Shown here: piece by piece, positions 10,089-29,857 of the stretch
Numbering within the stretch: position 1 is the first letter of the stretch
How the letters are laid out: every line of letters starts with the position of its first letter
IMG/VR virus record: IMGVR_UViG_3300020020_000031
Coordinates: 1 to 61,315 of that record
Length of the DNA: 61,315 bases
Direction: 5' to 3' (one strand)
Source of the DNA: a virus
Notes under the pieces: model-generated
The model's database searches: none
Told to the model about the DNA's origin: nothing
Seen by the model: only the letters and a program-made list of their open reading frames with translations
Translations under genes and position numbers: made by a program

Positions 10089-10432
10089 AGGTCTATATCG
10101 CCGGTCCCATTACCGGATACGAGGATGGCAACCGTGCAGCCTTTCGTAAGGCGGAGGCTGAGCTGATCCTGAAGGGTCACGTTCCCGTAAACCCTCACAC
10201 CGTCAAGCCTCAGCACGACGACGATTGCTATGCCAGGAAGATTGGCAGGCACTCCGCTTTGGTGGATGGGCACCACAGCGAGCATTCTTATGCCTGCCAT
10301 CTCCGGGCGGACATCATCGCTCTCCTCGACTGCGAGGCGATTACGATGTTGCCGGAGTGGACGATCTCTCGTGGCGCTACTGCCGAGTTTGCCGTAGCTA
10401 ATGCTATGGGGATGGAGGTGATTGACCTATGA
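10085..10432 (+). CDS. DUF4406/nucleoside 2-deoxyribosyltransferase-like protein
   Basis: The 115-residue protein starts KVYIAGPITG, the nucleotide-binding opening of the nucleoside 2-deoxyribosyltransferase/DUF4406 family, and ends with the matching RGATAEFAVANAMG element. A His-rich insertion lies in between (DGHHSEHSYACH). Family members bind deoxynucleosides and may salvage or sense them. It overlaps the deaminase by four bases (ATGA), which supports joint expression. Confidence 0.75.
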   Translation: MKVYIAGPITGYEDGNRAAFRKAEAELILKGHVPVNPHTVKPQHDDDCYARKIGRHSALVDGHHSEHSYACHLRADIIALLDCEAITMLPEWTISRGATAEFAVANAMGMEVIDL

Positions 10433-10608
10433 AGATCATACGGCACAACAGGAACCTTTTGGTCGAGCCGGGATTCCATTGGCTCCATTCCGGCAATGGA
10501 GGCTCTGCGGTCCTCAAGACCGACGTCTCCTGGCGCAACATATCCGGAATCATCATCGCCACGGAGTCTTCGGTGATGTTCGTCTACTTCAGACGGTCCC
10601 CAAGGTGA
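10429..10608 (+). CDS. Small protein overlapping the polymerase start
   Basis: This 59-residue reading frame begins at ATGA overlapping the previous stop and ends four bases into the polymerase GTG (GTGA at 10605). Such tight coupling at both ends argues that it is real. It looks beta-rich (repeated short hydrophobic runs such as ISGIIIAT and VMFVYF) and basic; no family was recognised. Confidence 0.6.
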   Translation: MKIIRHNRNLLVEPGFHWLHSGNGGSAVLKTDVSWRNISGIIIATESSVMFVYFRRSPR

Positions 10609-11513
10609 GAACGCCTAGCCTACATCACCATTCAACGTTCAGCTATATGGACGGCTTCGGGACTCCGGCCCAACACGTGGAACGCGCGGTGGAGTTGGAA
10701 ATGTGGGCTCTAGCTTTCACGGAGCACGGCAATGTTAGTTCCCACGTAGGGCTGGAGAAAGCTGCATTAGCGGCGGGGATCAAACCGATCTTTGGCCTTG
10801 AGGCGTATACCCACCCGGACCCGGATTCGCAATTAAAGTTCCACCTAACCCTCTTGGCGATGGACCAGACCGGCTACTCCAACCTCAACCGCGTGGTCAC
10901 GCGCTCCTGGGCGGAAGGCTTCTACTATTACCCGACCGTATCCGGGCAAATGCTAGCCGACCATCATGAGGGTTTGATCGTCCTCTCAGGATGCTCGGAC
11001 TCGCTGCTGGCCTGTAGTCTCCTTGGCGGGAAGGACATCCCTGCTAGCTTCGCCGGATTTCATAGGGCCAAGCGGTTGGCCGCTAACTTTCGCGCTCTGT
11101 TCGGGGATCGGTATTATTTGGAAGTGCAAGCATTCCCGATGTTTGATCGCGCAAAGCAGATTGCGCAAGCGTATTGGAGAATAGCCGAGCAACTCCATAT
11201 TCATATAGTGGTGACATTCGACGTCCATACGCTCCGGCCCGGTCAAGGCGAGATGCGGGCGCTCCTCCACGCGGCCGGACGTGGGACCAATACTATCGCC
11301 AAGCAACTCTCCTCCTGGGAGTATGATGTGCCGGACTCTCCGCCCCTCAGCGACGCCTACGCCATGAAGATGTTGCGGGAGTTGGGTTTCAGCAAGATGA
11401 AGGCAAGCTACATCATGGCACAGACCGCCATCGTAGCGGAGCGTTGCAATGTTACGCTCCCCAAGGCAAACAGATTCCGTTACAAGGGAACAGAGGCCAG
11501 CCTGACATGGTAA
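10605..11513 (+). CDS. dnaE: DNA polymerase III alpha subunit, PHP-domain fragment (split gene, part 1)
   Basis: The 302-residue protein is the N-terminal PHP domain of a DnaE-type polymerase. Metal ligands typical of active PHP domains are retained: LHHHST, FTEHGN, FGLEAY, FHLTLLA, LSGC and TFDVH. It ends with ERCNVTLPKANRFRYK, which in complete DnaE proteins directly precedes the palm. The coding frame then stops, and the polymerase core resumes 430 bases later in another frame. Active PHP domains can supply 3'-5' proofreading, so this may be a separate subunit that associates with the core. GTG 10605 overlaps the upstream stop. Confidence 0.85.
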   Translation: MRTPSLHHHSTFSYMDGFGTPAQHVERAVELEMWALAFTEHGNVSSHVGLEKAALAAGIKPIFGLEAYTHPDPDSQLKFHLTLLAMDQTGYSNLNRVVTRSWAEGFYYYPTVSGQMLADHHEGLIVLSGCSDSLLACSLLGGKDIPASFAGFHRAKRLAANFRALFGDRYYLEVQAFPMFDRAKQIAQAYWRIAEQLHIHIVVTFDVHTLRPGQGEMRALLHAAGRGTNTIAKQLSSWEYDVPDSPPLSDAYAMKMLRELGFSKMKASYIMAQTAIVAERCNVTLPKANRFRYKGTEASLTW

Positions 11514-12043
11514 CCATTCAAGACCTATTCCTGTGGGGAATGGACCGGGTAGTCCCGCAGTTACTGACTCCGCCGAAGGGAGTACAGATCAATCTGGGTC
11601 CGGGTAACGTCAAGAACATTCCAAATACGGTCGGGGTCGGTAGGTTGCACGAACTGAAGACGGAGATCGAGTGGGAGTTCCCGGAGCCGATCCCATTTGA
11701 AGATGGAACCGTCTCGGCCGTGCACGCCTATCACTTCATGGAGCACTTCTCCGGAGAGGATTGTCTGAAGATCCTGAGGGAGATGCAGCGAGTTCTCATC
11801 CCGGGCGGAGTTGCTTTCATCTGTACTCCGTATCCGGATACTCCGGGGTACTGGCGCGCTCTAGACCATAAGAGCGCTTGGTGCGAGGAGACTTGGAACT
11901 GGGTCTTCGAAAACCCATACTACGACGGAGGCGCTGAAGTACCATGGGAACTACGGCTACACGCTTGCTTCATCATGGGAATAGTAGAGCGCAACCGGGC
12001 GCTATTCTCTCAGCTGATCAAGAAGCATTCCTGGACCCGGTAG
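11507..12043 (+). CDS. SAM-dependent methyltransferase-like protein inserted between the polymerase parts
   Basis: The 178-residue protein has a class I methyltransferase layout: INLGPGN (motif I), PFEDGTVSAVHAYHFMEHF (the acidic/aromatic motif IV region) and EMQRVLIPGG. The C-terminal part (NPYYDGG, VVERN-like) matches a set of small actinophage methyltransferase-like proteins. Its ATG overlaps the PHP fragment stop by seven bases, and its 3' end overlaps the polymerase core by 100 bases from ATG 11944. Substrate is unknown; DNA, sugar or protein are all possible. It may have arrived as an insertion that split the polymerase gene. Confidence 0.7.
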   Translation: MVTIQDLFLWGMDRVVPQLLTPPKGVQINLGPGNVKNIPNTVGVGRLHELKTEIEWEFPEPIPFEDGTVSAVHAYHFMEHFSGEDCLKILREMQRVLIPGGVAFICTPYPDTPGYWRALDHKSAWCEETWNWVFENPYYDGGAEVPWELRLHACFIMGIVERNRALFSQLIKKHSWTR

Positions 12044-14259
12044 AGATCCTGTGGGCCTGGCTCCGAGAGGGATGGCGGTACCGCCTCCGGCAGGGGAACA
12101 CCCGCCTCAAGACCCACCAGCCGGAGTACCTGGAGCAATTGCAACAAGAGACCGAGCTAGTTATATCCAAGGACTTCGCCAGCTACTTCTTGCTGGTGTC
12201 GGATATTGTCCGCTGGGCAAAGGACCACGGGATTGCGGTCGGTCCCGGTCGCGGTAGCTCTGCGGCTAGCCTTGACTGTTATCTACTTCGCATTACCGAG
12301 CCAGATCCTCTAATGTTCCCATTGACAGACTTCACCCGCTTCATAGACCCCACCCGCGTGGATCTCCCGGACATAGACGTTGACTTTGATGACGTGCGCC
12401 GCCATGAGGTCCGGGAGTACGCGGTATCGCGGTGGGGCGAGGAGAGCGTTGCCAACATCGGAACCTTTACCAAATACAAAGGCAGGAACTCCATCACGGA
12501 CGTTGGGCGAGTATACGCGATCCCGCCCGGGCCGTTGGCAGTGGTCAAGGGAATGATCATCGAGCGCTCGGGCGGAGACTCTCGTGCGGACGCTAGTCTT
12601 GAGGACACCTTTGCTAGCTTCCCTCCGGCGGCGGAAGTCCTGGCGCTATACCCCAAGCTACAGATGGCGGTTGAGCTTGAGGGTAACTACCGGGGTATGA
12701 GTACCCATGCGGCCGGCTTGGTGATCTCCGATACGCCTATTGCTGACGTATGTGCGATGTACTCTCGTCTGGTTCATGGCCGACCAATTGCGGCCGTAGC
12801 AGTCGACAAGAAAGATGCTGAGTACCTGGGATTGATGAAGATTGATGTCCTGGGACTGACCACCATGGGCGAGATCGCAGAGATGTTGCAGCTGACCGGG
12901 ATGACGCTGGAGGAGTTGTACGCGCTCCCGTTTGACGATGAGCTTACGTTTGCCGCGTTCCAACGGGCGGACGTCATAGGCATATTCCAGTTCGAGGGGC
13001 GCGCTACCCGCCTGGTTTGCCGGGAGGTCAAGCCGGAGGACATCTATGAACTCATTCACGTCAACGCGCTCTCTCGCCCAGGTCCGTTGTTCTCCGGAAC
13101 GACTACCGAGTTCATTAACATCAAGCGCGGACTTATGGAGATCCCTCTGATCCATCCCATCCTGGATCGGATAGCGGCTCCCACGCGCGGACAGATCATC
13201 TATCAAGAGCAAGTGCTGCATTCCTTGGCGGAGTTTGGTGGATTGCCGGTCCAGCGGGTCCATGATATCCGGAAGATCATCAGCCAGAAACTGGGAGAGG
13301 CGCAGTTCAATGCCTCCTCGGAAAACTTCATAACTGGTGCAATGGAACGGAACAACGTCTCGCGCGAGGTAGCCTTCAAGGTTTGGGAGCGTGTTGTGAC
13401 CTCCGCCTCCTATGCGTTCGTCTATAGCCACTCGCTCTCGTACAGCATCATCGGGTATTGGTGTCAATGGTTCAAGCAGCATTACCCTACGGAGTTCTAC
13501 CAAGTCAAACTGGGGCGGACCTCGGACAATCAGCGACCCATACTAGTGAGGGATGCAGAACGGCACGGAGTCCGGGTCAAAGGGGTGACGCTAGGCAAGA
13601 GCGCTATTGGTTGGACGTCTCCGCGGAACGGCGAGCTAGTGGCGGGTTATGAGACCCTACCCGGAGTAGGGCCGGTCGTGGCCGCCAAGATATCCAAGAC
13701 GGAGGCGGAGCGCGGCGGATTCACTCAGGTGGAGGAGTTGTTGACGGTCCCTGGTATTGGACCCAAGACCTTGGAGAAGATGCGGCCACTTGTGAACGTG
13801 GAGGACCCATTCGGACTCCGACGCCTTGAGGAGGATATGGGCCGCGTACGCAAATGGATCCCTACGGCCGGACTGCCTACCCCGACGCATGTCTCTGATG
13901 AGCTACTGGACGTTAGTGAAATGGAGACGGTATTTCTGGGATTTGTGTTGGAGCGGAACTACCAAGACTATGTGGAGAACAAGAGAGCGCGCTACGGGAC
14001 GGAGGTCGCCGACATCATCAAGGAGATGCGGCGCCCGGACCTCAAGACGAGCGTGGTCCTACGCTGCGTAGACGATGGAGATGAAGATGTGTACGTACGG
14101 ATCAACCGCTACGATTTCCCAAATCTCAAGAGCCGTATAGACGGCATAGTGGTGGGTCGGGACATGGTCCTCGTCCGAGGTCGCAAGAGCGATAAGGTGG
14201 CAGCATTCGGAATCTCTGTGCAGACGAAGTGGCTGGTTCCCATTGATCCCAACGATTAA
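11944..14259 (+). CDS. dnaE: DNA polymerase III alpha subunit, catalytic core (split gene, part 2)
   Basis: The product contains the DnaE palm, thumb, fingers and C-terminal domains. Key sites are PGRGSSA (about 101-107), catalytic PDIDVDF (142-148), the third catalytic Asp in MKIDVLGL (about 297), a fingers segment, and a helix-hairpin-helix (VPGIGPKTLEKM) before an OB-like end. Homology to full DnaE starts near residue 29 (FLDPVEIL). ATG 11944, with GGAGG 12 bases upstream, is the only ordinary start in this frame before that point; it overlaps the methyltransferase by 100 bases. A -1 frameshift from the methyltransferase frame would also reach this frame, but no clear slippery site is seen. 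Confidence 0.85.
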   Translation: MGTTATRLLHHGNSRAQPGAILSADQEAFLDPVEILWAWLREGWRYRLRQGNTRLKTHQPEYLEQLQQETELVISKDFASYFLLVSDIVRWAKDHGIAVGPGRGSSAASLDCYLLRITEPDPLMFPLTDFTRFIDPTRVDLPDIDVDFDDVRRHEVREYAVSRWGEESVANIGTFTKYKGRNSITDVGRVYAIPPGPLAVVKGMIIERSGGDSRADASLEDTFASFPPAAEVLALYPKLQMAVELEGNYRGMSTHAAGLVISDTPIADVCAMYSRLVHGRPIAAVAVDKKDAEYLGLMKIDVLGLTTMGEIAEMLQLTGMTLEELYALPFDDELTFAAFQRADVIGIFQFEGRATRLVCREVKPEDIYELIHVNALSRPGPLFSGTTTEFINIKRGLMEIPLIHPILDRIAAPTRGQIIYQEQVLHSLAEFGGLPVQRVHDIRKIISQKLGEAQFNASSENFITGAMERNNVSREVAFKVWERVVTSASYAFVYSHSLSYSIIGYWCQWFKQHYPTEFYQVKLGRTSDNQRPILVRDAERHGVRVKGVTLGKSAIGWTSPRNGELVAGYETLPGVGPVVAAKISKTEAERGGFTQVEELLTVPGIGPKTLEKMRPLVNVEDPFGLRRLEEDMGRVRKWIPTAGLPTPTHVSDELLDVSEMETVFLGFVLERNYQDYVENKRARYGTEVADIIKEMRRPDLKTSVVLRCVDDGDEDVYVRINRYDFPNLKSRIDGIVVGRDMVLVRGRKSDKVAAFGISVQTKWLVPIDPND

Positions 14260-14456
14260 AAGAATCTTGCCTAGTACACTAGCCCCACCGCCCGGTATCG
14301 GAGAGAATCAGTTTGCTAGTCCGATTTTGCGAGGAGGGGAGAGGGATGGTCTAGGGCGAACCGGCTCAGGAACACTGATGAAAATTACAGGAGGCGAGCC
14401 CTGGAACTCGCCTCCTGTTTGCTGGAAAACTGACGAAGATCCTTTAAGGAGAAACG
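14260..14456 (+). other. Intergenic region after the polymerase
   Basis: About 200 bases without a convincing gene. It holds a GAGGAGGGGAGAGGG purine-rich stretch (14331-14345) that resembles a ribosome site but leads to no long frame, a TTTGCG element (14326-14331) without a matching -10, and the terminator hairpin listed separately. Confidence 0.6.
14388..14420 (+). terminator. Terminator hairpin after the polymerase core
   Basis: An 11-bp perfect stem CAGGAGGCGAG/CTCGCCTCCTG (14388-14398, 14407-14417) with an 8-base loop is followed by TTT. It should end the replication transcript that includes the split polymerase. Confidence 0.75.
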
Positions 14457-14825
14457 GTGGCTCCGGGAGATGCGGTGGAGGAAATGAAGCGTGCCCTACA
14501 GGGAGATCCGGATCTGCTGCCCGTATTCCGGGCGGGCGAGAATCTTACCATTCAACGCGATGTCAAGGGACAGAACGTCCTGATGGTGGTGGAGGCGCGT
14601 GACCCTTGCTCCCTCGGCCCGCATATGATGCTCCTTCGCGCTACCATGAAGACGTGGGGCGTATCGTCCTATGCAGACGGACGGGTGGCCGCGCAACGAG
14701 ATTCGATCGACCGCCTACTGAAGGAACGGGAGCAAGTCCTGAAACTTGCAATCAAGTACGGGGCGACGGAGATCATCGATCTTCTAACCGCGCCAAGAGA
14801 GGGAGCCGAAAGTGAGCAACTTTGA
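14457..14825 (+). CDS. Hypothetical protein
   Basis: The 122-residue protein starts at a GTG six bases after AAGGAGA. It has an N-terminal helix, a central strand-rich part (NLTIQRDVKGQNVLMVVEA) and a C-terminal amphipathic helix. No family was recognised. It overlaps the next gene by 14 bases. Confidence 0.6.
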   Translation: MAPGDAVEEMKRALQGDPDLLPVFRAGENLTIQRDVKGQNVLMVVEARDPCSLGPHMMLLRATMKTWGVSSYADGRVAAQRDSIDRLLKEREQVLKLAIKYGATEIIDLLTAPREGAESEQL

Positions 14826-15291
14826 CCTGCAACAGCTAGTAAAAGATGTACTGGAGAATTCGGAACTGAACGATCCGCGCGATATCGCAGCCGAGGTGTC
14901 TCGACAAACTCCATCCAAGGTTCTCCGTGAGGCTTATGAGATTGCGCTGGTGGACTACGTACGGAACGTCAGTATCAACAATACCCGATCTAACCCGATC
15001 ATTCGTGGAAGGACCCCGCGAATCAAGACGGGCTCCGCCAAGCGGATTGGGATTCGCGACTGGTGGCAGCGAGCGATGCGGGATCGGGTCTATATCGACT
15101 CCAACCAGAAGATCTGGAAGCCTCTTGGGGATTGCGGCTTTGATGACCTAATGCTGGCTGCCGACAGCCGGCGTGCCAAGGCCGATGCAATCAACGCCAA
15201 GGCTGATCAATTCGAGCGACTTGCGAATCTACTCAAAGAGTATGGTGTGGATTGCGTCTCCGAGCTTCCTCGTGAGGCCATCGATGCCTAA
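14812..15291 (+). CDS. Conserved actinophage-type hypothetical protein
   Basis: The 159-residue protein begins at GTG after GAGAGGGAGCC. The centre (IRDWWQRAMRDRVYI, then GDCGFDDLMLAADSRR) and the C-terminal helix that ends in VSELPREAIDA match a protein type common in actinophage replication regions, from memory. It may bind nucleic acid, being basic and helical in its first half. Function is not established. Confidence 0.65.
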   Translation: MSNFDLQQLVKDVLENSELNDPRDIAAEVSRQTPSKVLREAYEIALVDYVRNVSINNTRSNPIIRGRTPRIKTGSAKRIGIRDWWQRAMRDRVYIDSNQKIWKPLGDCGFDDLMLAADSRRAKADAINAKADQFERLANLLKEYGVDCVSELPREAIDA

Positions 15292-16402
15292 GAAGACTCC
15301 TGGCCGGGCCAATAACGGCCCGATGCCCATACGCGCCTCGCCCGGCCAGGGCAAGACTCTCGGGAAGACCACAACCCCAACTACAACCATAGCCAATTCG
15401 CCTTCCCGGGACAAGACTCCACGTCAGGCCAGCGAGCATCCGAAGCCCATGGGCGGCTCGCCTGACGTGGACCTATTCGAACCCACTCTAGCCCTGTCCG
15501 CTGATGTTCTGGATGACCTGGAGCAAACCAGGATCGCTAACGAGAATCGGCTCCGCCAGCTTGTTCGATCTGAGGCCGACAGCGACGGAGAGGAGCGCGG
15601 CTTTGGACTGGATGACACCAATCCTGTCGTGGCCGCACTCCAGAAGATGATTGCTGGACTCTTCGAGATTGAGGGGAAAGCTGTACTCAATCTTGAGAAG
15701 GTGATGAAAGCGCACCCTCTCGGGGAGTGGCAGAGAGCGCAGCACGGAATTGGCGCTAAACAATGCGCACGCCTTATAGCCGCTATCGGGGACCCATACA
15801 TCAGACCGGCATACGCGATCGAGAACGAAGACGGGACTGTTACGGAGGTCCCAGCCGCTCCGCGTACCGTGTCGCAACTTTGGGCCTATTCCGGCTATCA
15901 CACACTCCCCATCGGCCAGGCGCGAGACGATACCCATATAATAGTCGCCGATGGGGGCAAACTCCCGACCAGCAGCCATCTTACCTTCGAAACCCACAAG
16001 GGCACCGCTGCTGTTCGGGGCAAGTCCGGCAACCGGAGCCAGAGTCCCTCCGATCCCCATCCACCATTCGCTTCGGTTGCCGCAAAACGTAAGAAAGGCG
16101 AACGCGCCAATTGGTCCGCTGACGCCAAGATGCGTGCATTCCTTATTGCAGAGAAAACGGTTCAGCTAGGAAAGGCGGTCGACAGCCCGTACTATGAGGC
16201 GTATGCAAAGCGCAAGGCTAACACAGAAGGTCGGACCCATGTTGCGCCTTGTGTCCGTTGCGGGCCTAGTGGGAAGCCTGCCTTGAAAGGTTCCGTATGG
16301 TCGGACGGTCACCGCCACGCCGACGCGCTCCGTATTGTTGCCAAGGAGATCCTGAAGGGCCTCTGGATAGAGGCGAAGAGGCTTCACGAGGAGGAGAAAT
16401 GA
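15284..16402 (+). CDS. IS110/Transposase_20-related protein with a replaced N-terminus
   Basis: The 372-residue protein has a Pro/Ser/Thr-rich, probably disordered N-terminus (residues 1-60), a coiled-coil-like helix, then a segment that matches the C-terminal half of IS110-type transposases: GIGAKQCARLIAAIGD (about 155-170), RTVSQLWAYSGY (194-205) and KGERANWSADAKMRAFLIAE (about 275-295). The DEDD RuvC-like nuclease domain that IS110 enzymes carry in front is missing. A Cys pair (CVRCG) and His-rich end follow. No flanking insertion-sequence ends are seen, so this is probably a domesticated phage protein that binds branched DNA rather than a mobile element. Confidence 0.6.
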   Translation: MPKKTPGRANNGPMPIRASPGQGKTLGKTTTPTTTIANSPSRDKTPRQASEHPKPMGGSPDVDLFEPTLALSADVLDDLEQTRIANENRLRQLVRSEADSDGEERGFGLDDTNPVVAALQKMIAGLFEIEGKAVLNLEKVMKAHPLGEWQRAQHGIGAKQCARLIAAIGDPYIRPAYAIENEDGTVTEVPAAPRTVSQLWAYSGYHTLPIGQARDDTHIIVADGGKLPTSSHLTFETHKGTAAVRGKSGNRSQSPSDPHPPFASVAAKRKKGERANWSADAKMRAFLIAEKTVQLGKAVDSPYYEAYAKRKANTEGRTHVAPCVRCGPSGKPALKGSVWSDGHRHADALRIVAKEILKGLWIEAKRLHEEEK

Positions 16403-16509
16403 ATCAATGGGTTGTGGCGTTCCTAATCTTCTGGTTGGGAACCGGAGCGCTTACTGTGGCGAACAACTTCGCCAACGTCCTCAAAGAAAAGAACAAGAGG
16501 CTGCGATGA
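16399..16509 (+). CDS. Tiny single-pass membrane protein
   Basis: A 36-residue frame with GGAGGAG upstream overlaps both neighbours by four bases (ATGA each). One hydrophobic segment (WVVAFLIFWLGTGALTVA) is followed by a basic tail (KEKNKRLR). Function is unknown; tight coupling to the ThyX gene argues that it is translated. Confidence 0.55.
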   Translation: MNQWVVAFLIFWLGTGALTVANNFANVLKEKNKRLR

Positions 16510-17678
16510 ACGAACCGGCTTGGTTGACCGAGCACCGCGAATCTAAGTCCCTGTTGCAACTCCTGGCACCTCTATTCTCCGGCCACGAGGGGTTGGCGGA
16601 TCAGGAGTTAGACAATCTTGTCCATGTGGCGGAGACTGCGTTCAACAACCACTCCAAGAACACCGGGGAGCACGTCTCGCCATTCGATACCGGCATCGTT
16701 CGGGTAGGAACGGATGGTCTGGAGGTCCGGTTGCTCCAGGGCATTAACTTCGCCGGCCTCAAGCAGGTTATAGCAAAGGGAGTTCGCGCCACAATTGGGA
16801 ACCCTCGTCCGCAACGCTGGACTCCGCCAAGCCTTATGTCAGATCACCAGACGGTCTCCGACGAAGAGTGGCAGGAGATGTTCCGGGGTGGACTCCAAGC
16901 CGCGCTGGAGTCCCAGACGATTGTCTTTGAGGTCTGGGGCGCGTCCCGTGTCCTGACGCACCAGTTGGTTCGCAGTCGCCGCGCGGGATTCCACCAGCAG
17001 AGCCAGCGATCTACCTGGTACGGCGACCAACCTGAGGTACGGATGCCGGAGACCGTATGGCGCGCTGGCCATGTGGTTCGGGAGAGGTGGAGACAAAGCT
17101 ACTTTGCTGCGTGGGATGCGTACAGGAAAGCTTGCGACGCAGGAGTGCCGTACGAGGATGCGCGGTACATCCTCCCGGAAGGAACCGTCAACTACATCCA
17201 GTGCGAGTACACCATTCGGGAGTTCATGGCGGTCTACGCCTACCGGGGGTGCTCAATGTTCCTCCGGGAAATGGTTGAGTGTATGCGGTTGATGCGCGCC
17301 GCGCTCCTGGAGCAGGCTCCCTGGATGGAGCCGTTCGTGAAGGTCTCCTGCGAGACCGGACCCGGTTGCCCAGAGTGCGGCGGTCGTGGTTCATACTTTA
17401 CCGAATGGAGCGATGCAGCCTCGGCTAATCCCGAACTCGATCGAATGGTCCGTTATTACCCGGACCCACCGGATGGTACGGTCGAAATCGAATGCCAGAC
17501 CTGCCACGGAACAGGCGGTCGCAAGTGCACCTTCCAGGGCTGGGAGAATGTCGAGCTCGCGTGCGACAAGCCAATGGCCAAAGAAAACAACCGGGTATTT
17601 GTTGCTTCCCCCCGGCTTCGCATCGGAGCTAAAGAACGGCCCGCCACCGACAAAGAAGTAAAGGACTGGCTGTCATGA
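16506..17678 (+). CDS. thyX: Flavin-dependent thymidylate synthase, extended form
   Basis: The 390-residue protein has the ThyX core; its signature is RSRRAGFHQQSQR where the family motif is RHRxxSxNxxSxR, so the His is replaced by Ser. VWGASRVLTHQLV precedes it, and the REMVECMRLM helix follows. It would methylate dUMP to dTMP using folate and FAD. Beyond the usual core of roughly 220-250 residues it carries a C-terminal extension with two CxxC-type knuckles (CPECGGRG and CQTCHGTGG), resembling a DnaJ-type zinc module. Pathway partner: dCMP deaminase at 9675. The start ATG overlaps the previous stop. Confidence 0.85.
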   Translation: MNEPAWLTEHRESKSLLQLLAPLFSGHEGLADQELDNLVHVAETAFNNHSKNTGEHVSPFDTGIVRVGTDGLEVRLLQGINFAGLKQVIAKGVRATIGNPRPQRWTPPSLMSDHQTVSDEEWQEMFRGGLQAALESQTIVFEVWGASRVLTHQLVRSRRAGFHQQSQRSTWYGDQPEVRMPETVWRAGHVVRERWRQSYFAAWDAYRKACDAGVPYEDARYILPEGTVNYIQCEYTIREFMAVYAYRGCSMFLREMVECMRLMRAALLEQAPWMEPFVKVSCETGPGCPECGGRGSYFTEWSDAASANPELDRMVRYYPDPPDGTVEIECQTCHGTGGRKCTFQGWENVELACDKPMAKENNRVFVASPRLRIGAKERPATDKEVKDWLS

Positions 17679-21356: not shown

Positions 21357-21410
21357 AGGGCGACGGAAGCGGTACGCTATCCGTCGCCCTATCGTCCGCC
21401 TCTCGGACGA
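21357..21410 (+). terminator. Two tandem hairpins before the primase-helicase gene
   Basis: The first hairpin has an 11-bp stem AGGGCGACGGA/TCCGTCGCCCT (21357-21367, 21380-21390); the second has a 7-bp stem TCGTCCG/CGGACGA (21392-21398, 21404-21410). No T tract follows either, so they may attenuate, protect or structure the leader of the primase-helicase mRNA rather than terminate strongly. Confidence 0.55.
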
Positions 21411-21442
21411 CCCTACCCTGGCAAGGAGGATGATACCCTATC

Positions 21443-23923
21443 ATGGCCGAAAATCCTATGCCTTATTCGGTGGCCGCTCGAGACTATGTCGAAGCTGGAT
21501 GGATAGCTCCGTTACCATTACCATTCAAGGAGAAAGATCCACCACCGACTGGGTTTACCGGGGAGCAGGCGGAGTATCCCTCTATTGAGCAGATTGCGCG
21601 TTGGCTAGGTCAGAAGAATGGTAAGCTACGCGGAGGCTTCAAGGGGCGCCCGGAGCAAGCCAGGGCCGGAAACCTATCATTCCTGCCCGGTAACATCGCG
21701 CTCCGCATGCCACATAACGTCATCGGCATAGACGTTGACTTGTACGACGGTAAGGCTGGCGCGGAAACTCTTGCGGCCAACGAGAAAAAGTGGGGACCGC
21801 TACCACCCACATGGATTTCCACCTCACGGTTTGATGGTAGCGGCATTCGTTACTTTCGGGTCCCGGATGGGTTGCAATGGAACGATGTCGGGCCGGGCGT
21901 TGAGACCATTAAGTGGTATCACCGCTACGCCATAGTAATGCCAAGCGTTCATAGCAAGACCGGGAAGCGTTACATATGGATCCGCCCGGACGAAGAGCGC
22001 GTGTCTGATGAGTTCCCGTCTGTTGATGAATTGCCGATGCTGCCGGAGCGGTGGGTCGCGGGGTTGTCGGGTGGGGAAGCTTGGTCTAGCTCCGGCGACG
22101 CGGGCAACATTGACTACAAATCGGCGCTGGCTTGGTTGGTAGCTAATGGTACCGGTGAGCTATGCTCGGTAATGCAGTCTACCTTCACGAAATACGAGCG
22201 TTCGGTCCGGGAGGCGGGTGAAGACGGAGGCGCGCATGATCAGGCGCGGGACGGAGCGTGGGCGCTCCTGGGTGACGCGAAGGCAGGGCATACCGGAGCC
22301 CAGGAAGCGATCCGCCAACTTGGTAGCGTCTTCGGTACGGCCGTGGAAGGTAGGCGACCGCGCTGGCCGGCTGAGTGGCGCCGAGCCGTCACCAAAGGTG
22401 TTGGTAAGGTCCGCGAGGAATTGCGCAAGCTGGGCGGCGACGGGAGCGTTACGGAGACCGACCCTTGCGATGATTTCACGGGGAGCATGACGGTTACCGA
22501 TGTTGATGGTGAAGCCGTCAAGCCCAACAAGAATTACACTTTTGATGATACCGGAAACGGGCGCCGGTTGGCGGACGCGCTCCAAGGCCGAGCGGTCTGG
22601 GTCGGAGGCGACCACGGTTACTGGATGGCGTTGAACCCTGATACCCTTATGTGGGAGAAACGAGGGTCGGCGCCTATCCGCAAAACCTGGGACGAAGTCA
22701 CTACGCAAATGCATAAAGATGCTACAATGAGCTCGGATGCCGATTCGGCCGGTAGCTGGGCCAAGACCTCCCGGAGCGAACCTCGTATTGTTGCTGCCAT
22801 GAAGAATGCCCAACGGCATGTGGTCGTCGCGCCAGACATGTTTGACGCCAATAGCTCCGTCCTACACGTAGCAAACGGGGCAATAGAGCTAAGGCGGACC
22901 GTGGCGGAGCCGTATGTGTTCCGCGCGCGGGAGGCGTCAGACTACGCCACCTTGTGTTCTCCTGTGGTATTCAATCCGGAAGCGAAGTCTGCGATCTGGG
23001 ATGCTTTTGTTGAGAGCATTCTCCCGGACGAGGACGATCGCTGCTGGGTCCAAACCTGCACCGGCTATACCATCCAGGACGGCAACCCTGAGCGCGCGTG
23101 GTTCCTGGCCATTGGCCCGACTAGCGGCGGGAAAGGTACATTCACCGGCGCCGTGGCGGCCGCGCTCGGCCCGTACGCGGGGACCTACAATTTGTCGTTG
23201 TTCCACGATAAGCGCGAGGACGCGCCCCGGCCTGACATCCTGAAGGCGCTGCCGCAGCGAATGCTGTATCGGTCGGAGGTCGCCGACCTACGGGCTCTGA
23301 GTGCGGAAACCATCAAGGACTTCACCGGTAACGATCCGCTCACCGGCCGGGCTATGAGGTCGGATGTCATGGTGGAGCGCGTACCGGCATTCACGCCCTG
23401 GCTGACTACAAATAAGGTCCCCGATGTGACCGGTGCGGATAGAGCGCTCTGGCGACGTCTCCGTTGTCTCCCGTTCTTAGAGGGGCGGACCGAGGAGCAA
23501 GAAGACCCCAACCTGAAGGCTCAGCTAGCTAAGCCAAAGGTGCTGGCAGCCGTCCTCGCTTGGGCGCTCGAGGGTTGGGGGCTCTACCTCCGAGACCGGC
23601 TTGAGAGCCCATCCGCCAACGCTAGCCTCGAGACCGCTAAGGCGCGTATGGCCATGAGTGTGGCCGGCCGGTTTGTCGAGGATTCTTGTGACGTGGATCC
23701 CGAGTTCTGGGTTACTTCGATAGACCTCTGGAATCAATTCAAGTGGTGGCTCGAGGATAACGGCACGCGGGCGGAGCGCGATCGCGCCAACCGGAACAAT
23801 TTTGCACGCGGGCTAACAGAACTCGGTTACGTACAAAGACAAAGGCGTATCGGAGAGCGCGATGATGATCTCAAAGTTCGTGGTTGGTCCGGGCTCCGAA
23901 TCCGGGGTGCGCGGGTCGGATAG
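21443..23923 (+). CDS. Primase-helicase: AEP primase domain plus SF3/D5-type helicase
   Basis: The 826-residue protein has an N-terminal archaeo-eukaryotic primase-polymerase domain with the catalytic acid pair IGIDVDLYDGK (residues 94-104), and a C-terminal D5/superfamily 3 helicase with Walker A AIGPTSGGKGT (about 557-567), then PQRMLYRSEV and TPWLTTNKVPDV-type motifs. It should synthesise primers and unwind DNA at the phage origin. The iteron and hairpin region begins inside its last codons (23904), so enzyme and probable origin are adjacent. AAGGAGG precedes the ATG. Confidence 0.85.
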   Translation: MAENPMPYSVAARDYVEAGWIAPLPLPFKEKDPPPTGFTGEQAEYPSIEQIARWLGQKNGKLRGGFKGRPEQARAGNLSFLPGNIALRMPHNVIGIDVDLYDGKAGAETLAANEKKWGPLPPTWISTSRFDGSGIRYFRVPDGLQWNDVGPGVETIKWYHRYAIVMPSVHSKTGKRYIWIRPDEERVSDEFPSVDELPMLPERWVAGLSGGEAWSSSGDAGNIDYKSALAWLVANGTGELCSVMQSTFTKYERSVREAGEDGGAHDQARDGAWALLGDAKAGHTGAQEAIRQLGSVFGTAVEGRRPRWPAEWRRAVTKGVGKVREELRKLGGDGSVTETDPCDDFTGSMTVTDVDGEAVKPNKNYTFDDTGNGRRLADALQGRAVWVGGDHGYWMALNPDTLMWEKRGSAPIRKTWDEVTTQMHKDATMSSDADSAGSWAKTSRSEPRIVAAMKNAQRHVVVAPDMFDANSSVLHVANGAIELRRTVAEPYVFRAREASDYATLCSPVVFNPEAKSAIWDAFVESILPDEDDRCWVQTCTGYTIQDGNPERAWFLAIGPTSGGKGTFTGAVAAALGPYAGTYNLSLFHDKREDAPRPDILKALPQRMLYRSEVADLRALSAETIKDFTGNDPLTGRAMRSDVMVERVPAFTPWLTTNKVPDVTGADRALWRRLRCLPFLEGRTEEQEDPNLKAQLAKPKVLAAVLAWALEGWGLYLRDRLESPSANASLETAKARMAMSVAGRFVEDSCDVDPEFWVTSIDLWNQFKWWLEDNGTRAERDRANRNNFARGLTELGYVQRQRRIGERDDDLKVRGWSGLRIRGARVG

Positions 23924-24172
23924 CCGATCCGTACCCCGGCGCTCTAGGGGTGCGTTTCGGGGTGCGGCCGGGGACGGATTGCCGACGAATGCGCACCCCG
24001 GAAAAGTCGTTGGTATGAAACAGATCTCGCTATTAGGGGTGCGGGGGTGCGGATTCGAGGCTAAAGTTAGTTGTATTACTCGCGCGCTATCGATTTGCAT
24101 TCGTGCCACTACGCGCGCGAGAGGCTACTATCGGCTACTAACTTTCACCGAAAACGCCGAATCCGCACCCCC
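23904..24172. other. Candidate replication origin: iterons and a three-stem nested hairpin
   Basis: The octamer GGGGTGCG occurs five times on the + strand (23904, 23947, 23959, 24036, 24044) and twice as CGCACCCC (23992, 24164). The 3' part forms three nested stems: 15 bp (24043-24057 with 24158-24172), 9 bp AAAGTTAGT/ACTAACTTT (24063-24071, 24137-24145) and 9 bp CTCGCGCGC/GCGCGCGAG (24079-24087, 24113-24121). GGCTACTA is repeated at 24123 and 24133. The region follows the primase-helicase gene and has no convincing gene, which fits an origin; a structured RNA or operator is the alternative. Confidence 0.7.
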
Positions 24173-24219
24173 CGGAGTAGAATCTGGGGAAACGATTAGC
24201 TAAGGGAGTTGAGGATTGC

Positions 24220-24450
24220 ATGGCTAGGAACATGAGGACCGAGACTGAGTTTGGTTTGCCGATCCTACCGGCGCCGGATGGTTCGGTGATTCCTGAGGGA
24301 GCTTCCGGGCCGGCTGCGATAACTGCATTTACGGATGCAGACTCCATTAAGGCCGGGGCTGCAGGGCAGGAGTCCGGGCCGTTGTCCATTCAGCAACTCT
24401 CGCATGAGGCTCGCGAGATCTATGCACAAGGGGATGGCTTCCTCGGGTAG
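24220..24450 (+). CDS. Small hypothetical protein after the origin region
   Basis: The 76-residue acidic protein begins after AAGGGAG and is rich in Ala, Gly, Pro and Ser. A helical C-terminus (IQQLSHEAREIYAQ) is the only ordered-looking part. No family was recognised. It is the first gene of the run that leads to the terminase. Confidence 0.5.
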   Translation: MARNMRTETEFGLPILPAPDGSVIPEGASGPAAITAFTDADSIKAGAAGQESGPLSIQQLSHEAREIYAQGDGFLG

Positions 24451-24486
24451 GCTATCGTAAATGCTGATCTATCGGGATGTCGACAA

Positions 24487-24567
24487 ATGGCTCCGCCTTG
24501 GTACCTGATAGCTTTGCTGATACTCATGTTTGTGTTCTGGAGGCTCGGAGATGGTCGCAGAAGATGA
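24487..24567 (+). CDS. Possible 26-residue membrane peptide
   Basis: This short frame encodes a single hydrophobic helix (WYLIALLILMFVFW) and a basic end (RRR), which is the pattern of a tiny membrane peptide. No clear ribosome site precedes it, and it overlaps the following gene by 17 bases, so it is uncertain. Confidence 0.3.
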   Translation: MAPPWYLIALLILMFVFWRLGDGRRR

Positions 24568-24913
24568 AGCCGTTGTGGCTGTGCTGGAGGCCGCAAAGGT
24601 TGTTGGTGTGCTCGGCGACTACCTGGGCGGATATGATGCAGATTCCGTTGCTGCCGGTCGCCTTGCCGGGCGGGTAGAGACGCTGCTGTGGGCACAGGCC
24701 GAGCTCCAAGTAGAGTTAGCTCGAGTTTCGGCTGCTGATCGCTTTGCCGATACCAGAGCGCTCGAGGAGTTCCTGGTGCGGGTGCGGGATAGCTTGAGGC
24801 AGGTCCAGGACGGGACCGGAAAGCCTGCCGGGCTAGTCCGTAGCGGCGTGGAGGCAGTTAAGACGGAGATGGCTACCCTTGAGGGTGTCCCAACCACGGA
24901 GATGGGAGGCTAG
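24551..24913 (+). CDS. Hypothetical helical protein
   Basis: The 120-residue protein starts at ATG with GGAGG upstream (24539). It is Ala/Val/Glu-rich and almost wholly helical (LWAQAELQVELARVSAADRF), suggesting a coiled-coil or bundle. Position just before the small terminase candidate suggests a packaging accessory role, which is inference only. Confidence 0.6.
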   Translation: MVAEDEAVVAVLEAAKVVGVLGDYLGGYDADSVAAGRLAGRVETLLWAQAELQVELARVSAADRFADTRALEEFLVRVRDSLRQVQDGTGKPAGLVRSGVEAVKTEMATLEGVPTTEMGG

Positions 24914-24914
24914 G

Positions 24915-25466
24915 GTGGCTCAGCGGCCGCCATCCCGGCGAGGGACACCAATATGCAAAGGGCATACCGTTATTCGGCAGCCGCGCAACCTTACCGACCT
25001 GGCGCTACGGGGACAACCTATCTTGGATGAGGATGGGCGCCGTCAGTATCGGCCGTGTGAAGCGTATGCCGCTAACGGGACGGAGTATTGCCATTCTCAT
25101 GGGGGCTCCGCTCCGCAAACAATCAATGCGGCTAGGCGGACGCTAGCGCTATCGGCCGAGCGCGTGGCGCAAGGAGTGGTTGATACTGCATTGGACGAAC
25201 GGATTCCGGCCGTTGAGCGCCTCAAGGCTCAGGTACAGGTTTTGGACCGAGTGGGAATCCGTGCCGGGCTGGATGTCGGTCTAGAGACTCCGAAGTGGCA
25301 GAATGTCTTGAGTAAGATGTTCGGCCGGGTCGAAGAGGAGGATGAACTAGCGCCAACGGAGCCGGTACAGGAGACTCCGAAGAAAGCAAGTCGGGCGCCC
25401 GCAAGGGCAAAGCCTCGTAAGGCGGCACCGCCGTCTACGAAGCCAAAGTTTGAAGGCTGGGGATAA
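24915..25466 (+). CDS. Putative terminase small subunit
   Basis: The 183-residue protein begins at GTG. It carries a Cys/His module near the N-terminus (TPICKGH, CEAYAANG, YCHSHGGSAPQ) followed by a helical region. The HSHGGSAPQ element resembles the HGG(A)APQV motif of proteins that precede large terminases in actinobacterial prophages. It would recognise the packaging start site and load the large subunit at 29850, although that gene is 4.4 kb away. The C-terminus is a Lys/Pro/Ala-rich tail. Confidence 0.5.
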   Translation: MAQRPPSRRGTPICKGHTVIRQPRNLTDLALRGQPILDEDGRRQYRPCEAYAANGTEYCHSHGGSAPQTINAARRTLALSAERVAQGVVDTALDERIPAVERLKAQVQVLDRVGIRAGLDVGLETPKWQNVLSKMFGRVEEEDELAPTEPVQETPKKASRAPARAKPRKAAPPSTKPKFEGWG

Positions 25467-26978: not shown

Positions 26979-28166
26979 ATGCAGAAATCAAAGTGGGCGC
27001 CAGCCGGAGTTGCGGCTGTTGTCGCTGCTCTATTCGTTACAATCGTGCTGTCTACCTCTGTGGGAGCGCCAGCTGCTCCCGCGCTAGCCGCCGCGCCAGC
27101 AGAGCTCATGATTGCGCCGGGAGCGGACCCAGTCGCGTTCGGCCAGATGTGTGTGGACCGTAAGGCCAAGGGAACGGCCGGGCTCTCCAGCCGGGCCAAG
27201 AACTGGCTGACGGACTGTATCGCGATCTTCGGCGTCGGCCTCACCCCCAATCCATCCGGAAGCCCGTCGGCTAGCCCTTCGACGAGCCCGAGCTCCTCAC
27301 CGTCGGCTAGCCCAAGCGCTTCGGCGTCGCCGACTCCTCCCCCACCGCCTCCGCCAGCTTCCTGCGGGGAGTTCCCGTCAATGCCAGATGCCTCCTGTAC
27401 GGGAGTCCCGGCCGGAGTGGTCTTGCAAGCTTGCAATAGCGAGATCACTCAGCCCGGTACGTACGACTCGTGCCTATGGACGGACAGCGTTCAGGTCATG
27501 GCTTGCAACGTCACCATTACTCGATCCAAGGTACTGGGGCGCGTCGGAGACGGCGGGATGACCTTCCAGACTTGTGGGAGGCATGATCGTCAGCGCGCGC
27601 TTTCGCTGACTGATGTTGAGATCGACGGGTCGTCGCTCACCGATCCCACCGACATCCAAGAGGCCGCAATTGGCAAGGACGGATACACCTGTCTGCGGTG
27701 TAACGTCCACCACACTCTGCGCGGTGCGGACATGGGTGAATCGGTGACCCTCCGCGATTCCTACTTCCATGACTTCAAGGGCGTGGACGAGGCGCACATG
27801 TCGGCCGCTGGATCCAATGGCGGTGGCGATAATGTGATAGTGCACAATACGTTCGATTGCAATTCCGTGACTGGCCAGGGCGCGTGCTCCGGAGCGTTCG
27901 TCATGTACGGCGATTTCGCCCCAATCGACAACTGGCTGATCCAGAACAACTGGTTCGCCAGTCCCGGCTCGTACTGCGTCTATGCCGGTTCGCTGGACCT
28001 CAAGCCATTCCCGAATGCTACCAATGTGGTATTCTTGGCGAACTTGTGGTCCAAGAAGTACACGCCGCAGTGCGGCGAATTCGGTCCGGTGACCGGGTGG
28101 GAGCCCAATTCGGGCAATAGCTGGAACGAGAACCGTTACACTACGGGTGAACTGATCCTGGTGTAG
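26979..28166 (+). CDS. Secreted right-handed beta-helix protein
   Basis: The 395-residue protein begins with a classical signal peptide (basic start, hydrophobic core AAVVAALFVTIVLS, Ala-rich cleavage region near residues 30-38). A Ser/Pro/Ala-rich linker (about 95-125) leads to a C-terminal domain with repeated short turns and Cys residues (ACNVTITRSKV, LRCNVHHT, VTLRDSYFHDF, DNVIVHNTFDCNS), typical of pectate-lyase-like beta-helices. It is encoded well away from the tail genes and should be exported from the infected cell, perhaps to modify surface polysaccharide. ATG 26979 was chosen because it places the signal peptide at the N-terminus. Confidence 0.7.
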   Translation: MQKSKWAPAGVAAVVAALFVTIVLSTSVGAPAAPALAAAPAELMIAPGADPVAFGQMCVDRKAKGTAGLSSRAKNWLTDCIAIFGVGLTPNPSGSPSASPSTSPSSSPSASPSASASPTPPPPPPPASCGEFPSMPDASCTGVPAGVVLQACNSEITQPGTYDSCLWTDSVQVMACNVTITRSKVLGRVGDGGMTFQTCGRHDRQRALSLTDVEIDGSSLTDPTDIQEAAIGKDGYTCLRCNVHHTLRGADMGESVTLRDSYFHDFKGVDEAHMSAAGSNGGGDNVIVHNTFDCNSVTGQGACSGAFVMYGDFAPIDNWLIQNNWFASPGSYCVYAGSLDLKPFPNATNVVFLANLWSKKYTPQCGEFGPVTGWEPNSGNSWNENRYTTGELILV

Positions 28167-28176
28167 CACCAAGATC

Positions 28177-28224
28177 GTCGGGGTGGGCCGAAACCTCCCA
28201 AGGTCCGGCTCGGCCCACCCCGAC
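28177..28224 (+). terminator. Strong hairpin terminator after the secreted protein gene
   Basis: A perfect 15-bp stem (28177-28191 with 28210-28224) encloses an 18-base loop. It isolates the secreted protein gene from the next gene, which has its own AAGGAGG site. A T tract is almost absent (CTTGT), so termination may need Rho or be bidirectional. Confidence 0.75.
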
Positions 28225-29537: not shown

Positions 29538-29857
29538 CGAATAGCGAATGGGCGACGCGAGAGCTAGGCGGACACGGCAACGGCTGGGGGCTTTATCGCC
29601 GGGTAGACGATCAGGTTTATGACGTCAAATGCCAGCTTATCGTTACCGGAGCGCCACCTAAGGCGTGCCGCCAACGCGGCCTCAAGTACGGCCAGCTGCT
29701 CCGAGTGCGGTGTTGGTGCATGGCTCAATTGCCCGGACAGTTGCAGCGACCGGAGCGCAGGCACACGCTGCGATTCGACTTTATAGCAGATGTCCCGACG
29801 TACCCGGAAGCTGTTGCTTTGTGGAATGAGCATAAGCTACGGAGGAGCGATGGCTAA
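29534..29857 (+). CDS. Small hypothetical protein preceding the terminase
   Basis: The 107-residue basic protein has alternating beta-type stretches (QVYDVKCQLIVTG, LRVRCWCMAQL) and a helical C-terminus. It overlaps the terminase start by eight bases. No family was recognised. Confidence 0.55.
   Translation: MTNSEWATRELGGHGNGWGLYRRVDDQVYDVKCQLIVTGAPPKACRQRGLKYGQLLRVRCWCMAQLPGQLQRPERRHTLRFDFIADVPTYPEAVALWNEHKLRRSDG

Follow-up and report, generated by a model that had tools for sequence, protein, structure and literature searches.

A block of short repeats and nested inverted repeats at positions 23904-24172 raises the question of what it does for the virus that carries it. The window, that is the whole stretch of DNA analysed here, comprises 61,315 bases of a virus record and encodes terminase, portal, major head and tape-measure proteins on the + strand. 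The block starts inside a primase-helicase gene of the same strand and extends into the gap that follows it. We propose that it is probably the replication origin of this phage, organized according to the rep-ori type of SaPIs and PICIs. Not one of the 17 annotated stretches from this phage class that we inspected, several of which belong to cultured phages of Gordonia, Mycobacterium smegmatis and Arthrobacter, has an origin marked, and the block provides a concrete and small candidate for the class.

The primase-helicase and the repeats behind its gene

The features on which the argument is built are, in order along the window:

21443-23923, + strand: Prim-Pol / D5-SF3 primase-helicase of 826 amino acids, the proposed initiator (PF09250, PF08706, phrog_1156, TIGR01613)
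23904-23911, + strand: iteron GGGGTGCG, within the final primase codons
23930-23937, - strand: degenerate iteron GGGGTACG, one mismatch
23947-23954, + strand: iteron GGGGTGCG
23959-23966, + strand: iteron GGGGTGCG
23992-23999, - strand: inverted iteron GGGGTGCG
24036-24043, + strand: iteron GGGGTGCG, first of an abutting tandem pair
24043-24172, no strand: outer 15-bp perfect inverted repeat, arms 24043-24057 and 24158-24172, an iteron on each
24044-24051, + strand: iteron GGGGTGCG, second of the tandem pair, extended to GGGGTGCGGATTCG, in the left arm of the outer stem
24052-24163, no strand: core between the iteron sets, 112 bp, the proposed melting region, GC 0.50 against 0.59 for the window
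24063-24145, no strand: middle 9-bp stem, arms 24063-24071 and 24137-24145
24079-24121, no strand: inner 9-bp stem of alternating C and G, arms 24079-24087 and 24113-24121
24164-24171, - strand: inverted iteron GGGGTGCG, on the far side of the core
24220-24450, + strand: gene of 76 amino acids, the next after the gap, family without assignment

The primase combines an N-terminal Prim-Pol domain (PF09250) with a D5_N/SF3 helicase domain (PF08706) and has no TOPRIM match in Pfam. It is assigned to phrog_1156 ('DNA primase') and scores above the NCBIfam cut-off for TIGR01613, the P4-family primase_Cterm. An AF2 model of residues 364-826 based on 22 sequences has a mean pLDDT of 88.9; it replaced a model of the whole primase from four sequences, which reached a pLDDT of 34.4. 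In VIA-align, the model matches the SaPI5 primase-helicase (7ola/7om0) with a Z of 28.9 over 387-392 residues (rmsd 4.3-4.5), in an alignment that covers positions 1-462 of the model and hence nearly its full length, and the PrimPol of African swine fever virus with a Z of 32.0. The sequence profile also retrieves the SaPI5 protein (E 3.7e-07), and structure hits to D5/E5 of poxviruses and to C962R of African swine fever virus reflect the same helicase class. According to our own reading of its secondary structure, the C-terminus of the model consists of helices and two strands and appears to be winged-helix-like. Based on its domains and modelled fold, this protein thus has the parts of a self-loading initiator, which would act by binding the iterons.

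The earlier note on this DNA had claimed seven copies of GGGGTGCG, five direct and two inverted; all were located, within 23904-24171, and the first indeed lies in the last codons of the primase ORF. It had also called this number far above chance, which holds for the clustering, as judged against both shuffles and other stretches. In 300 dinucleotide shuffles, the top 6-, 7-, 8- or 9-mer count of the 360-bp region is never attained. Likewise, in 400 other stretches of 450 bp from the window, no 7- or 8-mer occurs seven times (maxima 5 and 4). The whole window holds nine copies of GGGGTGCG compared to a shuffle mean of 4.43, a number reached in 4 of 100 shuffles. Since this total is near chance and just two copies lie outside the cluster, the sites are local rather than dispersed operators.

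The latter point bears on a reading of the block as a regulatory region, consisting of operators for a repressor or for autoregulation of the primase, or forming a structured leader for the operon beginning at 24220. The region does precede a run of co-directional genes and its + strand folds as RNA with a z of -3.35. However, 23700-24600 contains neither a sigma-70-like promoter on the + strand nor a terminator-like site, and the region has no Rfam match. Together with the local confinement of the repeats, this makes a regulatory role highly unlikely. In line with the lack of a credible gene in the block that had been noted, the three small ORFs tested (23862-24203 on the + strand, 23813-24109 and 24138-24389 on the - strand) have no PHROG match at E 0.1. 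The 76-aa gene beyond the gap matches neither Pfam nor PHROGs.

Repeat arrays beside related primase genes

A nucleotide search with 21400-25400 against a phage collection returned no match, a contig scan of genomes likewise revealed no relative, and plasmid records gave partial matches only. The comparison therefore relies wholly on distant relatives and on siblings from IMG/VR. Related proteins are encoded in 839 phage records, every one with less than 60% identity. To define the sample, 52 of 65 loci were scanned, the 13 omitted being apparent duplicate contigs or close Gordonia relatives as judged from a table; four of the 52 had no stop. The remaining 48 were combined with 20 named or sibling loci, hand-picked for diversity from the 839 matching records, and seven duplicates with at least 85% identity were removed (L026, L038, L041, L044, L062, L064, L065), giving 61 loci. 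Three of the removed loci (L026, L041, L064) had been array-positive, and L063, the locus kept instead of L064, is negative. An array was accepted when one 7- or 8-mer had at least five non-overlapping copies, exceeding every control stretch of the same locus; a repeat test that allowed one mismatch was too noisy, as the count found in the window recurred in 1 of 58 control stretches.

An array is found directly 3' of the primase in 23 of these 61 non-redundant loci and 5' of it in 0 of 60. For loci with an alignment to the window primase of at least 600 columns, the corresponding numbers are 13/34 and 0/34. Cultured phages among the positives are Madi (ATTACGG, eight copies), Hawkeye (GCGGAAC, eight), Onyinye (GTAACCA, eight) and ParvusTarda (CGGTTAC, eight) as well as NovaSharks, Cuke, Labelle, DrLupo, Tarzan and Constance. 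The array test failed in 38/61 loci, including the Zierdtviridae examples Commandaria, Float294, ChewyVIII and Zion as well as Troll4, YungJamal, Attoomi and ORFs above 1,500 amino acids. Where arrays are present, the repeat word varies between most loci and the place is constant. This one-sided distribution, in combination with the precedents for this primase class, makes an initiator followed by its origin, as the note had read the block, the best-supported reading, and it argues further against a regulatory one.

Each of the 23 arrays was divided at its longest gap to define a core. The GC content of the core is below that of the locus in 22 of 23 cases (mean difference -0.127). In 18 loci, most iterons on one side of the core lie on the strand opposite to most of those on the other side; no locus has the same majority strand on both sides, and five are tied. 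Not one of 5000 random strand assignments, nor of 5000 permutations within loci, gave as many as 18 opposite cases. The window itself carries short iterons immediately 3' of the initiator gene, as SaPIs and PICIs do. Its two sets are lopsided, with six copies to the left of the core (five on the + strand, one on the - strand) and a single - copy to the right, and the core is only mildly AT-rich, so that the layout of two sets around an AT-rich region is clearer in many related loci than in the window.

Repeat arrays mark partition, packaging and recombination sites in other replicons too, and the block could by chance be a site of this kind, for instance a parS-like one, that happens to be located here. 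This is extremely improbable in view of the above, since the array follows the initiator class across many loci with differing repeat words and displays the flipped orientation and GC-poorer core. In addition, about 5.6 kb separate the block from the terminase gene, whose start is at 29790, and no partition-protein or integrase family is present among the window proteins scanned against PHROGs, a subset of the ORFs.

We consider it fairly probable that the PICI-type origin layout is common to Prim-Pol/D5 initiators and widely used by autonomous tailed phages, those named here infecting actinobacteria, with an iteron word that is rewritten per lineage and gives each phage a private origin code. 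A search by title and abstract, which left subscription journals largely outside, found no description of origins of this kind in actinobacteriophages; within the searched literature, no account seems to exist of how frequently this initiator is accompanied by the same layout in tailed phages. As a rule, opposed iterons just 3' of a Prim-Pol/D5 gene would predict both origins and initiator specificity, and a single replication module would connect autonomous phages with phage satellites. We also looked for co-evolution between the iteron word and the C-terminal domain and did not find it: the correlation of word similarity with C-terminal similarity (rho 0.12; 113 of 2000 permutations as high) lies below that of the N-terminal control (rho 0.21; 17 of 2000).

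A second word, CAGGTCAG, occurs in 11 of 29 origin regions with differing iterons, compared to 0.8 expected from control stretches. It is present in the 3' regions of L013, L015, L016, L017, L037, L045, L059, L070, L077 and L084 and absent from the window's own region, and a shared or host factor may use it as a site. The word CAGGTCAGA is also found shortly 5' of the primase in L015, L016, L036 and L037.

Stems, folding and sibling loci

Three nested stems of 15, 9 and 9 bp had been described for the block, and all three are 100% complementary, with an iteron on each arm of the outer one (24044-24051 on the + strand, 24164-24171 on the - strand). The window contains two perfect inverted repeats of at least 15 bp within a span of up to 160 bp, 24043-24172 and 28177-28224, and each of 30 shuffles contains none; the second sits just past an ORF ending at 28166. 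As DNA, the nested-stem stretch folds with a z of -5.05, equalled in 0 of 200 shuffles, and its raw folding energy ranks only 32 of 2353. The outer stem follows from the opposed layout, because its arms are two facing extended iterons GGGGTGCGGATTCG. It is therefore better read as opposed iterons across a core than as a hairpin selected for folding. Without the iteron-bearing arms the window core has a z of about -2, and 24062-24146 has a z of -3.49.

These stems are the basis of a different type of origin, similar to that of the pRN1 replicon, in which the primase-helicase would assemble on the folded 130-bp stem-loop and not on iterons. There are precedents for such a system: pRN1 carries a 100-bp stem-loop that starts 54 bp 3' of its Prim-Pol/SF3 gene; this stem-loop and the replication operon are both needed for replication and together suffice for it, and the pRN1 authors report that phage BIP-1 has a similar structure 3' of its replication gene (PMC4234260). 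In the window, a pRN1-like protein and a large nested structure about 120 bp 3' of the primase gene are both present, and in 27 loci picked as array-bearing or siblings, a choice that leaves out array-negative loci, 17% of 270 3' windows have a z below -3 compared to 2% of 540 controls. However, the folding is mostly due to the opposed iterons. In the 18 of 23 array-bearing loci with a core of at least 60 bp, iteron-free cores have a mean z of -0.77 compared to -0.23 for controls (n 216), and two of the 18 fall below -2; the core of ParvusTarda stands out with a 14-bp stem and a z of -4.85. Moreover, pRN1 as described has no iterons (PMC4234260), whereas the region in the window does. Consequently, a pRN1-type origin appears unlikely. 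Conservation of the stems in relatives, one of the checks suggested, has been borne out only weakly when the hairpin is taken as a conserved element of the class, and the hairpin is weaker evidence for an origin than the iterons. A cumulative GC-skew profile, also put forward as a check, does not single out this place: the skew keeps its positive sign over roughly the first 27 kb of the window and does not turn at 24 kb.

The closest relatives are four IMG/VR siblings (L001, L002, L003 and L022) with primases that are about 47-51% identical, of which L002 equals L003 in sequence over the stretch compared. The siblings retain the order of primase, non-coding gap and small gene with a similar start, a likeness judged by eye. 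A fold of comparable stability to that of the window is absent from them (minimum z -1.53 in L001, -2.55 in L003, -2.71 in L022), which is a further point against the pRN1-type reading. The array test also failed in L001, L003 and L022, including when one mismatch was allowed. In L022, two sets of three degenerate 8-bp tandem copies flank the core, both in the same orientation. A 16-bp palindrome, CGCGCGTATACGCGCG, is found in the gap cores of L003 (6533-6548) and L022 (7577-7592), and words resembling CTCTATATACG recur in the cores of several other phages. Homology of the inverted window core with the sibling cores was considered and dropped, as the shared stretches are too short to claim it.

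Proposed mechanism and known systems

From the iterons, their layout, the protein domains with the modelled fold and the recurrence of arrays beside related genes, all of which are shown by the analysis, we infer how a SaPI/PICI-type origin at this place would work. The C-terminal winged-helix-like domain of the primase-helicase would bind the GGGGTGCG iterons, and the oppositely pointing iteron sets would cause two SF3 helicase rings to load facing opposite ways; the opposed symmetry of the iterons is what two such rings would need. Both rings would then melt the core of 112 bp (24052-24163) and travel away from each other, after which the opened strands would be primed by the Prim-Pol domain and extended by the DnaE-like polymerase of the phage. 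The stems in the core may play a role, as in pRN1, but are not needed; in a secondary function they might help extrusion or mark priming sites.

The placement of the block agrees with relatives of the primase that have been studied by experiment, as for SaPI Rep, SCCmec Cch2 and pRN1 ORF904 an origin or putative origin has been reported directly 3' of the gene (PMC7581432, PMC4234260, PMC6092414). In SaPIs, rep is directly followed by the origin, whose iterons are recognised by the Rep C-terminal domain (PMC7581432). PICI origins are described as immediately 3' of the initiator gene, with an AT-rich region between two iteron sets (PMC6092414). Similar to SaPI5 Rep (7ola/7om0), the window encodes a D5-class primase-helicase, as supported by both fold and sequence, with a predicted C-terminal DNA-binding domain, iterons directly 3' and, in a less clear-cut form, iteron sets on either side of a proposed melting region; the fold alignment extends across nearly all of the modelled half. 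Unlike the satellite islands, the window is a contig of 61 kb from a tailed phage and encodes terminase, portal and tail proteins, and its origin candidate has its own word GGGGTGCG, the lopsided sets, the mildly AT-rich core and inner stems.

The other systems share fewer elements with the window. Cch2 of SCCmec also has a D5-family helicase, and its C-terminal domain binds repeats just 3' of its own gene, which the protein unwinds; it is described with three iterons and without a fused primase, the element encoding a separate primase-polymerase (PMC7581432). ORF904 of pRN1 has the same combination of Prim-Pol, SF3 and winged helix, the latter modelled in our case, and a large stem-loop 3' of its gene, yet specific binding was not detected in the pRN1 work as reported (PMC4234260) and the window region is dominated by iterons. 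The alpha protein of P4 is likewise a multifunctional primase-helicase with a winged helix that binds origin repeats, but its primase is of the bacterial TOPRIM type (PMC4234260), whereas the window protein is an archaeo-eukaryotic Prim-Pol.

Two other regions of the window deserve mention. A 409-aa ORF at 15173-16402 on the + strand matches NCBIfam NF052498.1, 'TIGR-Tas system RNA-guided endonuclease', with 199.7 bits (cut-off 100) and also phrog_4285, a transposase; repeat finders applied to the surrounding 14000-17000 reported no repeat array. The DnaE-like DNA polymerase III alpha is encoded on the + strand in a split form, with the N-terminal part at 10422-11513 and the remainder at 11944-14259, and between both lies an ORF (11444-12043) with a methyltransferase-family match.
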